64,000 bases of DNA from Geothrix terrae (GTDB taxonomy: Bacteria; Acidobacteriota; Holophagae; Holophagales; Holophagaceae), in the NCBI RefSeq assembly GCF_022808775.1, contig NZ_JAKZLA010000003.1, positions 248,001-312,000 on the forward strand, written 5' to 3'. The translations under genes and the position numbers were made by a program. The notes below the pieces were generated by a model. It saw nothing but the letters and a program-made list of their open reading frames with translations. It was not told the DNA's origin and did not search any database. Every line of letters starts with the position of its first letter. Positions within the stretch are counted from its first letter, which is position 1. This document shows positions 51,791-59,994 of this stretch, one piece after another.

Positions 51791-51980
51791 CGGCGCGTCA
51801 GCGGTCGAGCTCGCCTGCGATGACGCTCACTCGGCGCGCCGCGCCTCGCCCTCCGGGCGGTGCCTGCGGCACCGCGGGACTCGCTGCGCTCGTCCTCATG
51901 GCCCCCAGTCCGGCACCGGGCTGCGCCCGGTCGCCGTCCTCGGCGCGTCAGCGGTCGAGCTCACCTGCGATGACGTTCAT
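51791..51980 (-). repeat. nuoD 3'-end duplication with hairpin-rich spacer
   Basis: Bases 51941-51980 (end of nuoD, stop and 7 bases beyond) are repeated at 51791-51830 with 3 mismatches in 40, exactly 150 bases away. The 110-base spacer contains GGTGCC-GCA-GGCACC and other small hairpins. In the nuoD frame the region after the stop is fully open and ends V-S-V-I-A-G-E-L-D-R-stop, mirroring M-N-V-I-A-G-E-L-D-R-stop of nuoD. A 17-bp exact inverted repeat (51930-51946 with 51982-51998) surrounds the true nuoD end. Confidence 0.85.
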
Positions 51981-53153
51981 GGCGCCGAGGACGGCGACGG
52001 CGTCGGCGATCAGGCAGCCCTTCACCTGCTCCTCGAAGCTGCTGAAGATGGGCAGGCAGGGGGGGCGGACCCGGATGCGGTAGGGGTTCTTGCCGCCGTC
52101 GCTCACGATGTAGAAGCCCAGCTCACCATTGGCGGCCTCGGTGGCGCTGTAGATCTCGCCCACCGGCATGTCGATGCCGTGCATGATGAGCTTGAAGTGG
52201 TGGATGAGGCTCTCCATCCGCGTGTAGACCTTCTCCTTGGGCGGCAGGGCCACCTTGTAGTCGTCCACGATGACCGGGCCGGGCTCGAGGCGGTCCAGCA
52301 CCTGGCGGATGATGCGCAGGCTCTGACGCATCTCCTCGATGCGCACGAGGTAGCGGTCGAACACATCGCCGGTGGTGCCCACGGGGATGTCGAAGTCGTA
52401 GGTCTCGTAGCCCAGGTAGGGCTGGGCCTTGCGGAGGTCCTGGGGCACGCCGGCGGCGCGCAGGCAGGGGCCCGTGTAGCCGCTGTTCACGGCATCCTCG
52501 GGGCTGATGGCGCCGATGCCCTTGGTGCGGTCGTACCAGATGGGGTTGTGGGTCAGCAGGCGCTCGCACTCGTCCACGGCCGCTTCGCACTCCACCAGGA
52601 AGCGCTCGGTCAGGGGTGCGAACTCCGGGGGAATGTCGCGGAAGAGGCCGCCGATGCGGGTGAAGCTGGTGTGCAGGCGCTGGCCCGCCGCCATCTCGAA
52701 CAGGTCGTAGACGGTCTCGCGCTGCTTGAAGAGGTAGAGGAAGGCGGTGAAGGCGCCGATGTCCACGGCGTTCACGCCCACGCAGACGATGTGGTCGGCG
52801 ATGCGGGCCAGCTCGGAGACCAGCACCCGGATCTGCTGGGCCCGCTTGGGGATCTCGATGCCCAGCAGCTTCTCCACGGCGCAGGCGTAGCCCACGTTGT
52901 TCATGATGGAGCTGCAGTAGTTCAGGCGGTCGGTGAGCGGGATGAACTGCTGGTAGCTGAGGCTCTCGCCCAGCTTCTCGACGCCGCGGTGCAGGTAGCC
53001 CATCTCCGGGGTGGCCCGGATGATGGTCTCGCCCTCGAGCTCGAGGACGATGCGCAGGGTGCCGTGCGTGGTGGGGTGCGAGGGGCCGAAGTTGACGATC
53101 ATGTGATCGCCGTCGAGCTGCTGCCGGGAAAGGGCGATGGAATCCATGGTCAT
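51948..53153 (-). CDS. nuoD: NADH-quinone oxidoreductase subunit D
   Basis: The 401-residue protein is the 49-kDa-type subunit that forms the quinone site. It starts near N-F-G-P-S-H-P-T-T-H-G-T, then shows E-M-G-Y-L-H-R-G-V-E-K and the R-T-K-G-I-G-A-I stretch, ending C-L-I-A-D-A-V-A-V-L-G-A-M-N-V-I-A-G-E-L-D-R. The start at 53153 has AGGA upstream and lies 7 bases after nuoC. The last 11 codons and stop are repeated downstream (51791-51830). Fourth gene of nuoABCD. Confidence 0.96.
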   Translation of the reverse strand: MTMDSIALSRQQLDGDHMIVNFGPSHPTTHGTLRIVLELEGETIIRATPEMGYLHRGVEKLGESLSYQQFIPLTDRLNYCSSIMNNVGYACAVEKLLGIEIPKRAQQIRVLVSELARIADHIVCVGVNAVDIGAFTAFLYLFKQRETVYDLFEMAAGQRLHTSFTRIGGLFRDIPPEFAPLTERFLVECEAAVDECERLLTHNPIWYDRTKGIGAISPEDAVNSGYTGPCLRAAGVPQDLRKAQPYLGYETYDFDIPVGTTGDVFDRYLVRIEEMRQSLRIIRQVLDRLEPGPVIVDDYKVALPPKEKVYTRMESLIHHFKLIMHGIDMPVGEIYSATEAANGELGFYIVSDGGKNPYRIRVRPPCLPIFSSFEEQVKGCLIADAVAVLGAMNVIAGELDR

Positions 53154-56661: not shown

Positions 56662-57740
56662 GCGGCGATCTCGTCTTCACGGGCCTGGGCCTGGTGCTGC
56701 CCTGCGGGGACGGCGTCGAGACCGCGGGGGTCGGCCTGGCCTCGGGGCAGCCCTGCTTCGCGGACCTGCCGGAGACGCTGGGCCTGGGCCAGGGGGCCGC
56801 CTGCGCCGCGTTCAACCCGGCTGGCATCATCCCGCCCATGCAGCTGCGGCGCCTGGACCGGACCTCGCGGTTCGCCTGGGCGGCGGCGCACCAGGCCTTC
56901 CGCGACGCGGGCCTGGATCCGAAGCCAGTGGGAGACCGCATCGCCGTGGCCGTGGGCACCATGACCGGCGGCAGCGAGGCCAGCGAGGCCTTCATGCGGC
57001 CCTACCTCCAGCGGGGGCCCGAAGGGGCCTCGCCCCTGCTCTTCCCCAACACCGTGGCCAACGCCGCCAGCGGCCACCTGGCCCTGGCCTTCGGCCTGAA
57101 GGGCCCCAGCGCCACCTTCGTGGACCGGGAGAACGCCGCCCTCTCCGCCCTGGAGCAGGCGGCCCGCTGGCTGCGCGCCGGCCTGGCGGACGCCGCGCTG
57201 GTCCTGGGGGCGGACGGCCTCTTCCCCCTGCTCCTCGACATCTGCCGCGGCGCCCGCCTGCTGGCCCGCCACGGCCATCCCGAGATCGGCTCCGGCCGGG
57301 GCTTCCTGCCGGGCGAAGGGGCCCAGGCCCTCCTGCTGGAGCGGCGCGACCGGGCCGAGGCCCGGGGCGCCCGCCCCCGGGCCGTCCTGCGGGCTCTGGC
57401 CTCCCGGTCCACGCCCGGAGACGGGATCGAGGCCCGGACCCGGGCCCTGGCCGAGGCATCGACCCAGGCCCTCGGTGAGGCCCCCCCGACGCGCTGGATC
57501 GGCGGCAGCAACGGGCTGCGCCGGCTCGACGCCCTGGAGGCCCATCTGGCCGCCGCCCATCCGGACTGGCCCGCGGCCCGCTTTCCCAAGGCCCTCTGGG
57601 GCGAGTTCGGCGGCTCCGGCGGCCAGCTGCTGGCGGCGGCCCTGCTGGAACCCGCGGATCGCACCCTCGTCACCGCCCCCGCCAGTTCGGGCGCCCAGTT
57701 CGCGGCGCTGCTCGAAGGCGTTAGGCTGGAACGACGATGA
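56658..57740 (+). CDS. Chain-length-factor-like ketosynthase homologue (no active-site Cys)
   Basis: The 360-residue protein has the thiolase fold and begins D-L-V-F-T-G-L-G-L-V-L-P, but the nucleophile region reads D-R-E-N-A-A-L-S-A-L, with no Cys. The two His motifs of ketosynthases are also lost: the late motif reads G-E-F-G-G-S-G-G instead of G-H-T-L-G-A-A-G. It therefore resembles the chain-length factor of type II polyketide and aryl polyene systems, which forms a heterodimer with the active synthase. It overlaps both neighbours by 4 bases. Confidence 0.82.
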   Translation: MSGDLVFTGLGLVLPCGDGVETAGVGLASGQPCFADLPETLGLGQGAACAAFNPAGIIPPMQLRRLDRTSRFAWAAAHQAFRDAGLDPKPVGDRIAVAVGTMTGGSEASEAFMRPYLQRGPEGASPLLFPNTVANAASGHLALAFGLKGPSATFVDRENAALSALEQAARWLRAGLADAALVLGADGLFPLLLDICRGARLLARHGHPEIGSGRGFLPGEGAQALLLERRDRAEARGARPRAVLRALASRSTPGDGIEARTRALAEASTQALGEAPPTRWIGGSNGLRRLDALEAHLAAAHPDWPAARFPKALWGEFGGSGGQLLAAALLEPADRTLVTAPASSGAQFAALLEGVRLERR

Positions 57741-58267
57741 CCCAGCGCGACCAGATCAGCATCGGCAGCCAGTCCATCCTGTGGGTGGCGGGTGTGGGCG
57801 TGGGCCTGGTCACCCTGGCCTTCGTCCTGGGCGTGCAGGTCGGCAAGCAGGGCGCCGCCTTGCGCCGCCCCGCCCAGAAAGGCGTGGAGGAGGAGCTCAA
57901 GGACCTTCCCGAGCCGCTGGTGGACCAGCTCAAGATCTTCGAGGGCGACGGTCCGGACAAGTTCGTGGCGGCCCCGCGGGTGGACGCCACGGCTCCCAGG
58001 CCGGAGCCCAAGACTGAGCCCAGGGCCGAGGCCGCGCCAAGCGGAGGCGGCACCTGGACCCTCCAGCTCGTGGCCACCTCCGATGCGGCCGAGGCCAAGC
58101 GCGTGGCCGACAAGGCCAAGGCCGCCGGCTTCGCCACCACCACCCTCAAGGAGAAGGGCCAGCTGAAGGTGCGCCTCGTCAAATCGGCGGATCGCGCCGT
58201 CATCGACAAGACCGCCGAGAAGCTCAAGAAGGCGGGCTTCAAGCCCTTCGCGGTGAAGGCGGAGTAG
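57737..58267 (+). CDS. SPOR-domain membrane protein
   Basis: The 176-residue protein has a short cytoplasmic N-terminus, one membrane helix (about 14-35), a Pro/Glu-rich periplasmic linker, and a C-terminal SPOR domain (about 105-175; W-T-L-Q-L-V-A-T-S-D-A-A-E-A ... K-V-R-L-V). SPOR domains bind denuded glycan strands at division sites. It is translationally coupled to the chain-length factor, an unexpected pairing with a lipid or polyene operon. Confidence 0.88.
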   Translation: MTQRDQISIGSQSILWVAGVGVGLVTLAFVLGVQVGKQGAALRRPAQKGVEEELKDLPEPLVDQLKIFEGDGPDKFVAAPRVDATAPRPEPKTEPRAEAAPSGGGTWTLQLVATSDAAEAKRVADKAKAAGFATTTLKEKGQLKVRLVKSADRAVIDKTAEKLKKAGFKPFAVKAE

Positions 58268-58300: not shown

Positions 58301-58441
58301 TCACGGTTTGGGATAGACGCGGATACCCACCCACTTCTTCTCGGTATCGCCTGCGGCGATACGCGAGACACCGCTCGCGCCCCAATTACCCGTCTTCGGT
58401 TCAGGTCACGGTTTGGGATAGACGCGGATACCCACCCACTT
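58301..58441 (-). repeat. NFACT gene 3'-end duplication with hairpin-rich spacer
   Basis: The last 36 bases of the NFACT gene including the stop (58406-58441) recur without mismatch at 58301-58336, 105 bases away. Similarity continues past the stop (CCTGAAC after TGA, with GGG inserted in the distal copy). The spacer contains GTATCGCC-GCA-GGCGATAC and a GCGAG/CTCGC hairpin. The frame after the true stop is open and ends K-K-W-V-G-I-R-V-Y-P-K-P-stop again. Confidence 0.88.
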
Positions 58442-59854
58442 TTTGAGAATCACCTTGCCCGGCGCGAAGCCGCGGGGCTTGCTGATGTCGGCGATGCGGG
58501 CGAGGTGGACCTCCACCTTGCCTCCGTCGCGGGCCTTGCTGTGGTAGGCGGCCAGCTCGGCGGCGCGCTCCAGCACATGGCGCGGCAGCTCGCTCAGCTT
58601 GTCGGGGTTGCGGATGACCACGTGGCTGCCCGGCACGCTGGCCACGTGCAGCCAGAAATCCGTGTTGTCGGCCACCTTGAAGGTGAGCTGGTCGTTCTCC
58701 GCGTCGCCCTTGCCGATGAGCACCTCGAAGCCGTCCACCATGACGCTGCGGAAGGCCGTGCCTTTGCCATCCTTGCGTTTCGCCTCCGCTCCGCCCATCC
58801 GCTTCGTCCCCTTGCCCTTCGCCGAATCCTTCGCGTTCTTTTGTCTCGCGAGGGGCGGCTCCGGCGCAAGGCCCGCGGCCTCGGCTTCCATCCGCTTCGC
58901 CCACGCGGCCCGCTCGCGGGCCAGCTCCGCCTCCAGTTCCCGCACCCGCGCCAGGCCGCGCTCCGCCTTCTTGGCCGCGGCGAACCAGGTCTGGATGGCC
59001 GCTTCGGCGGGACGTCCCTCCGGCAGCGGGATGCGCGTCCCGTCCAGGAGCACGGCCTCGCCGGTGGCCCCCTTGAGGCGATAGAGCTCCGCGGCCAGGC
59101 GCTGGGCCTGGGCCTTGAGGGGCAGGATGGCCTCGTGCTTCGCCCGGTCCCGGGCCAGGGCCTGGCCCAGGCGGTCCATGCGCGCGACCTCCGCCTGGCG
59201 CTTCCGCTCCGCCGCCGCCTGGGCCGGCGCCAGGATCAGCGCCTCGGCCCTGGCCGCGGACCAGGCGCGGTGCCGGTCCAACAGGCCCCCTTCGCCCTCG
59301 AGGACCTCGGGGATCTCCCCGGCCACGGCCCGTTCCAGGTCCGCGCCCCAGCGCTCCCGCCAGCGGCGGAGGGGGGGCGGATCCTCGGAGGGTTCCGGCG
59401 GGGCGGCGGGAAAGGGGGTGCCAAGGCCCAGGCGCGGAATCGGCACGTCCAGACCGTCCGCCCGGATGCCGGCCCGGCCGGGAATGGCCTGGAAGGCCAG
59501 GCGCAGGGTCTCCAGGCGTCCGGTGATGGCCCGCCGCTGGAAGACGAGGCCCAGCCAGCGTTCCCGGGGATCCCCCTCCACGGCCTTCAGCCTCGCCCCC
59601 TGGAGCCAGGGGCCCCAGAGCTTCCCGCTGTCCTTCGGGGCCTCGGCCTGGAGGCGCGTCCAGGCGGGATGGCCCGTGTCCAGCAGCCAGAGTTCGGGCC
59701 TGGGCTGAAGCAGCAGCACCCACCCCTCGGCGGCCTTCCTGCCCGCCCAGCGCAGGCCCAGGGCCCGGCTTGAAGCCCAGACGGCCTCCACAGGCAGCTC
59801 GCCCCGTTCCCGGAGCCACGTCCGGCCCAGGGCCAGGATCAGGGGTGCATCCAC
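58406..59854 (-). CDS. NFACT-family protein (RqcH/FbpA-like)
   Basis: The 482-residue protein starts at a GTG preceded by AGGTGAG. An N-terminal NFACT-N-like domain and a long Arg/Ala-rich helical coiled-coil region (about 200-340) are followed by a C-terminal NFACT-R domain (about 375-482): N-D-Q-L-T-F-K-V, D-F-W-L-H-V, P-G-S-H-V-V-I and the ending W-V-G-I-R-V-Y-P. Bacterial NFACT proteins such as RqcH recruit tRNA-Ala to stalled 50S subunits and add Ala tails. Whether this member does so is inference; the N-terminal half is divergent. The 3' end is duplicated downstream. Confidence 0.85.
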   Translation of the reverse strand: MDAPLILALGRTWLRERGELPVEAVWASSRALGLRWAGRKAAEGWVLLLQPRPELWLLDTGHPAWTRLQAEAPKDSGKLWGPWLQGARLKAVEGDPRERWLGLVFQRRAITGRLETLRLAFQAIPGRAGIRADGLDVPIPRLGLGTPFPAAPPEPSEDPPPLRRWRERWGADLERAVAGEIPEVLEGEGGLLDRHRAWSAARAEALILAPAQAAAERKRQAEVARMDRLGQALARDRAKHEAILPLKAQAQRLAAELYRLKGATGEAVLLDGTRIPLPEGRPAEAAIQTWFAAAKKAERGLARVRELEAELARERAAWAKRMEAEAAGLAPEPPLARQKNAKDSAKGKGTKRMGGAEAKRKDGKGTAFRSVMVDGFEVLIGKGDAENDQLTFKVADNTDFWLHVASVPGSHVVIRNPDKLSELPRHVLERAAELAAYHSKARDGGKVEVHLARIADISKPRGFAPGKVILKKWVGIRVYPKP

Positions 59855-59994
59855 GGACTCACCTTTCTCTGTTCTTTCCACCCGACGGTGGCCATCATGG
59901 GGCAGCCTCCCCGTCCAGCATCCCATGTCTGGCCCCAGGAAGGTCCCTACCTCCGCCCTCATCCGGCTTTCCTCCACAACCTGACGCTGGACCC

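Follow-up and report, generated by a model that had tools for sequence, protein, structure and literature searches.

The end of the NFACT gene of Geothrix terrae was found to be present twice, the two copies being separated by a short palindromic hairpin of a genus-wide family, and about 20 unrelated genes show the same plan, with the functional gene end or start (copy A) on one side of the hairpin and its duplicate (copy B) on the other. Accounts of how this arrangement arises in Geothrix are proposals only; the one that we favour, on balance, is a palindromic mini-element of long standing whose target duplication is unusually long and whose copies would be kept homogeneous by recombination.

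In the window (the whole stretch of 64,000 nucleotides that was analysed), positions 58301-58336 and 58406-58441 were identical over 36 nt and matched at 97% over 39 nt, with the final 13 codons of NFACT (39 nt, 36 exact) occurring again 105 bp downstream, start to start. In a search for exact direct and inverted repeats of at least 16 nt this pair was the longest in the window, the runners-up reaching 22 nt, and the gene-end duplication claimed in the original prediction was confirmed. Read in the direction of the gene, the gene body is followed by copy A, a 36-nt linker, a 30-nt hairpin with the formula GTCTCGCGTAT-N11-ATACCGAG, copy B and then the end of the SPOR-domain gene (Table 1). Minus-strand translation gave KKWVGIRVYPKP-stop, PEPKTGNWGASGVSRIAAGDTE, KKWVGIRVYPKP-stop, confirming that the frame is open between both stops, and the seven related bases described past the stop proved to be CCTGAAC, present beyond both copies with a shift of 3 nt between them. 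The same order, with the same hairpin, was also found at NFACT in nine other Geothrix genomes, with a linker of 36 nt in nine of the ten insert-bearing genomes (35 nt in L218). The in-frame spacing noted earlier is thus usual at NFACT but not general, as the linker of NFACT copy L223 is interrupted by an in-frame stop and copies at other genes lie 103, 104, 106 or 107 bp apart. Chance or an assembly artefact is a vanishingly improbable source of the longest repeat of the window, which was seen in independent genomes including the named isolates G. rubra, G. campi and G. fuzhouensis; an artefact is excluded because the arrangement, hairpin included, recurs at NFACT in nine other genomes and at about 20 other genes.

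Table 1. Features of the NFACT and nuoD gene ends in the window
Feature	Position	Strand	Basis
NFACT (RqcH-like) gene, functional end formed by copy A	58406..59977	-	Pfam NFACT-R_1 E=5e-11; ORF
NFACT copy A, functional last 13 codons including stop (KKWVGIRVYPKP-stop)	58406..58444	-	repeat comparison, translation
NFACT linker, 36 nt, from copy A stop to hairpin	58370..58405	-	comparison across species
NFACT hairpin GTCTCGCGTATCGCCGCAGGCGATACCGAG, palindromic with a bulge, belonging to the Geothrix family	58340..58369	-	family pattern search, stem covariation
NFACT copy B, second gene end, 105 bp away from A	58301..58339	-	repeat comparison
SPOR-domain gene, convergent with NFACT	57737..58267	+	domain match
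nuoD copy A, functional end	51941..51978	-	approximate bounds
nuoD insert, different hairpin mosaic outside the GTCTCGCG family	51829..51940	-	sequence comparison
nuoD copy B	51791..51828	-	approximate bounds

The parallel drawn in the original prediction with nuoD held for the architecture, a second nuoD end being present in most Geothrix genomes (none was found in G018 and G028 within the stretch read), but not for the insert, which at nuoD is a longer mosaic palindrome; nuoD follows the same plan as NFACT with a different repeat family. At 51791-51985 of the window, the nuoD insert opens with a 17-nt inverted copy of nuoD's own sequence (51930/51982).

The NFACT hairpin is one of 11 copies in this genome, and the family was found in all 37 Geothrix genomes searched (this genome and 36 others) at 3-30 copies each, these counts being the results of pattern searches. 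Outside Geothrix, matches were sparse, with chance-like counts in other families, and in a scan of GTDB species the named records with the hairpin were almost all Geothrix or Holophagaceae. Rare matches beyond the Holophagaceae were observed in Motilimonas (L107), a Rhizobiales MAG (L136) and a Bacillota MAG (L138), of which the two MAG matches may be mis-binned contigs. No Rfam family matched the hairpin, and no match to it was found in viral contigs. Copies are short bulged palindromes, several to many per genome and mostly outside genes, with the foot GTCTCG preceded by G, A, T or C. Stem bases vary from site to site with complementarity kept, as 97% of cells were paired versus 88% after shuffling and double changes numbered 73 versus a shuffle maximum of 36, in shuffles that do not preserve relatedness among sites. 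The insert is not a one-off; the repeated unit consists of target copy, linker and hairpin, the hairpin belonging to a genus-wide palindromic family.

The hairpin was also seen in other settings. At two loci of this genome (L002 and L003; contig C11 at ~194.4 kb and contig C8 at ~316.5 kb) it lies inside a MITE-like repeat, at least ~200 bp long and bearing the terminal inverted repeats CTAACAAAACCCC, which occurs in many Geothrix genomes. For a partner transposon with matching ends, one unpaired left end was seen among the fetched loci, a right end not being within reach. A second set of copies takes a 42-nt AGATATCAGTTT-hairpin form, which lies inside other repeats and is placed exactly before AAG or AGG (L077 compared with L090; L069, L146, L155 and L163). 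As these copies sit in repeats without a target duplication, duplication is not obligatory on insertion.

To compare the hairpin sites, the right flank of each of 158 unique copies was aligned with its left flank and a direct repeat was called at a score of at least 12, the 95th percentile of the flank-repeat control being 10. A flanking direct repeat above control was present in 74 of the 158 copies, with an offset of 72-77 nt in 56 of these; other duplication offsets were 38-39 and 127-148 nt, with few and weaker cases at 176-198 nt, some of which run across a second hairpin. Copies and array units lie 103-107 nt apart because the hairpin mostly begins 72-77 nt after the start of copy A, and in the tandem arrays that were present the hairpin-to-hairpin distance peaked at 102-108 nt. 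Recurrence at about 20 unrelated genes upholds the earlier argument that chance duplication is unlikely. Gene ends are duplicated at rpsT, rpsU, efp, nuoJ, thiC, biotin carrier proteins and adenosine deaminase, and the description as a duplication of gene ends had to be widened, since gene starts are duplicated too (polA, uppS, manC, folP, a macB-like permease, an amino-acid kinase and a DUF502 protein; some affected genes are named by sequence resemblance alone). Young copies (L059, L063, L161 and L171) showed full-length duplication, the non-coding part included. At differing biotin carrier proteins (L117, L175, L057, L110 and L143) the biotinylation motif (AMK|M) marks the exact start of the copy, and the offsets, ~124-140 nt, extend to the gene end.

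At duplicated starts, the upstream region that the gene first had stays with copy B, from which a short leader ORF runs across the hairpin. In 8 of the 8 genes examined these leader ORFs stop no more than ~12 nt from the real start, and linker shuffling predicts that 5 of the 8 would do so anyway; their ending at the real start codon was accordingly rejected as a striking signal. Translational coupling at these starts is plausible, and the stop positions argue for it weakly because of the five cases expected from shuffled linkers.

Precise empty sites with a single gene end, for which a search in related genomes had been proposed, were found. At NFACT they were present in the closest relatives (L198 in G025 and L199 in G006), and G013 has a single NFACT end too, all three sharing the SPOR neighbour. 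At rpsT, G032 carries copy A, hairpin and copy B with 1 mismatch over ~64 nt, terminator included, and its sister G002 has an empty site (L264) at which a single copy is followed by the flank of copy B. Direct repeats containing a gene end, and empty sites, are hallmarks of integration by integrase-borne elements, which restore the 3' end of the gene that they target, and both are present here. That the sites are remnant attachment sites of such elements is nevertheless very unlikely, as the inserts are ~66 nt long and gene-free and recur with one and the same hairpin at about 20 different genes, starts included, at a fixed spacing.

In a tree built from the NFACT gene body minus the duplicated codons, presence and absence of the insert required at least five state changes. 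The simplest reading is that the insert was ancestral in an 11-genome clade and was lost in G024, in G008 and in the G025/G006 pair, with the insert being present in the G012/G061 pair. A fresh insertion in this genome is most likely not what is seen, because within the clade the insert goes far back and has been homogenised and repeatedly lost. Among nine NFACT inserts, copy B differed from its own copy A at 2.8 of 36 positions and from copy A of other species at 5.9 (permutation P=5e-5), while the linker differed between species at 11.6 of 36 positions on average (32%). As copy B stays near its own copy A while the linker has diverged, these data point to an old insert with copies that have repeatedly been made alike. 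The linker and the flank of copy B were essentially unrelated at NFACT, rpsU, nuoJ and efp, and non-coding positions of A and B at gene-end sites differed at 264 of 388 positions, with rpsT and the young arrays as exceptions. This divergence counts against the favoured account in its simple form, being larger than expected from duplication followed by neutral decay, so that repeated refreshing of the coding part has to be assumed.

Horizontal transfer, in which copy A, linker and hairpin would have come from another species and copy B would be the resident gene end, finds some favour at L193, L117 and L159, where A and B differ mostly at third positions as orthologues do. We consider it improbable, since NFACT A and B carry common species-specific states, rpsT A and B of G032 share derived changes relative to sister G002, and the excess at third positions is largely expected when A is constrained and B is free. 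Over 37 copies, A/B differences at codon positions 1, 2 and 3 numbered 28, 30 and 79 (one locus being mis-framed), near the pattern expected if A is under constraint and B is not, in which half of the differences would fall at position 3; constraint on copy B is thus at most weak, and protein-level selection on it was rejected, the excess being mostly explained by the constrained A. At gene ends copy B is probably functionless. A windowed gene comparison of NFACT copy A in this genome gave no clear donor signal, and a horizontal origin for it was rejected.

Under the preferred and most economical account, the 30-nt hairpin element would have settled long ago at Geothrix gene boundaries, the first step being an insertion with a long direct target duplication, usually of 72-77 bp and occasionally of ~38 or 124-148 bp. 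Insertion close to the boundary of an essential gene, among its final or initial ~75 bp, would be survived since copy A, joined to the gene body, restores the full end or start, with copy B displaced past the hairpin. The direct copies could then recombine or slip, so that units would multiply into arrays of 103-107 bp, arrays would contract with copy B being re-copied from copy A, and precise deletion between copies would leave an empty site. Homologous recombination or slippage, and no dedicated enzyme, would keep A and B alike. In favour of the account are the genus-wide hairpin family with its covarying stems, the offset of 72-77 nt, the full-length duplications in young copies, the empty sites at rpsT and NFACT, the spacing in arrays, the closeness of each copy B to its own copy A and the codon-position pattern.

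The polarity of the sites was one-sided. The gene body lies on the A side in every case, and the mirror arrangement (right-anchored, with the gene on the B side) was nowhere clearly above control, which counts against plain insertion with target duplication, from which both orientations would be expected. The constancy of the linker length and the duplication-free AGATATCAGTTT-hairpin copies likewise count against the simple insertion version, and together with the polarity these observations leave room for a putative activity on a fixed-length unit. An alternative that we regard as possible rather than likely is that the unit of target copy, linker and hairpin (103-107 bp) itself moves, with an enzyme that cuts at the hairpin foot on its right and, on its left, at a site resembling A(A/G)(A/G)ANG. 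Re-insertion would take place ahead of this site, either in alleles lacking the insert, as in homing, or in tandem. The constant 72-77 nt offset over unrelated genes, a linker of precisely 36 nt in all but one of 10 species in spite of 32% divergence, the gene polarity without exception and the start of copy B, always directly after CCGAG and mostly with AAG, AAA, AGA or AGG, are all consistent with such a unit. Against it, NFACT copy B in this genome resembles copy A rather than the gene end at the empty site of its closest relative, and the enzymes sought were absent from this genome and none was genus-wide: PF01797 (RAYT/Y1_Tnp) was missing here and from 36 of 41 Geothrix genomes (present in 5 of 41), the IS1634-family transposase NF033559 was missing here and above cut-off in 4 of 41, and reverse transcriptase and Y2/IS91 genes were likewise missing here. 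All four were rejected as genus-wide mobilisers, and that no mobilising enzyme was found also weighs against the preferred account. An uncharacterised Geothrix activity might recognise the hairpin and a target ~7 helical turns away and duplicate or re-insert the ~75 bp between them, a suggestion that we make tentatively; if true, the mobile unit would carry a copy of the gene end that it interrupts and hence be able to live inside essential genes.

The arrangement shows how a repeat can reside harmlessly at the ends of essential genes, and empty, single, array and decayed states form a natural series at the same genes across dozens of species, so that ideas on how very long target duplications originate can be tested in culturable Geothrix. 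The arrangement was not described in the literature searched, which is not proof of absence, and several known systems resemble it in part. Homing elements with a copy of the terminal part of their host gene, as in fungal mitochondria, place a functional end at the gene body and the old end beyond; Geothrix shares the functional end beside the body and the displaced end past the element, but its insert is without an endonuclease gene and its A and B copies are usually homogenised within a species. Filled and empty sites in relatives, as at NFACT and rpsT, are shared with MITEs. CRISPR-like arrays consist of regular repeats with unrelated spacers of foreign origin and are accompanied by cas genes; in the Geothrix arrays the spacing was regular and the stretch between hairpins is a copy of the host gene end.

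REP/REPIN sequences with their RAYT are also short bulged hairpins, genus-specific, mostly at gene borders and with covarying stems. The Geothrix hairpin differs from them in having no cognate RAYT in this genome, in its duplicated gene ends at a fixed distance, which were not met in the REP papers searched, and in its foot GTCTCG, REP hairpins having the foot tag GTAG or CGTC (PMC3733652). RPE, NEMIS, ERIC and YPAL are non-autonomous palindromic repeats of <200 bp near or in genes, with RPEs inserted inside reading frames and YPAL showing 3-26 bp target duplications and both empty and filled sites (PMC2229807); the Geothrix duplication is longer, measuring at least 72-77 bp, and restores the ends of genes. 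Target duplications of similar size occur in the IS1549/IS1634 family, whose long variable direct repeats of 8-514 bp were reported with no model proposed (PMC2266710). These are full insertion sequences and the Geothrix element is a 30-nt hairpin, but its duplications are comparably long and variable in length, and the Geothrix series thus bears on the origin of such very long target duplications.
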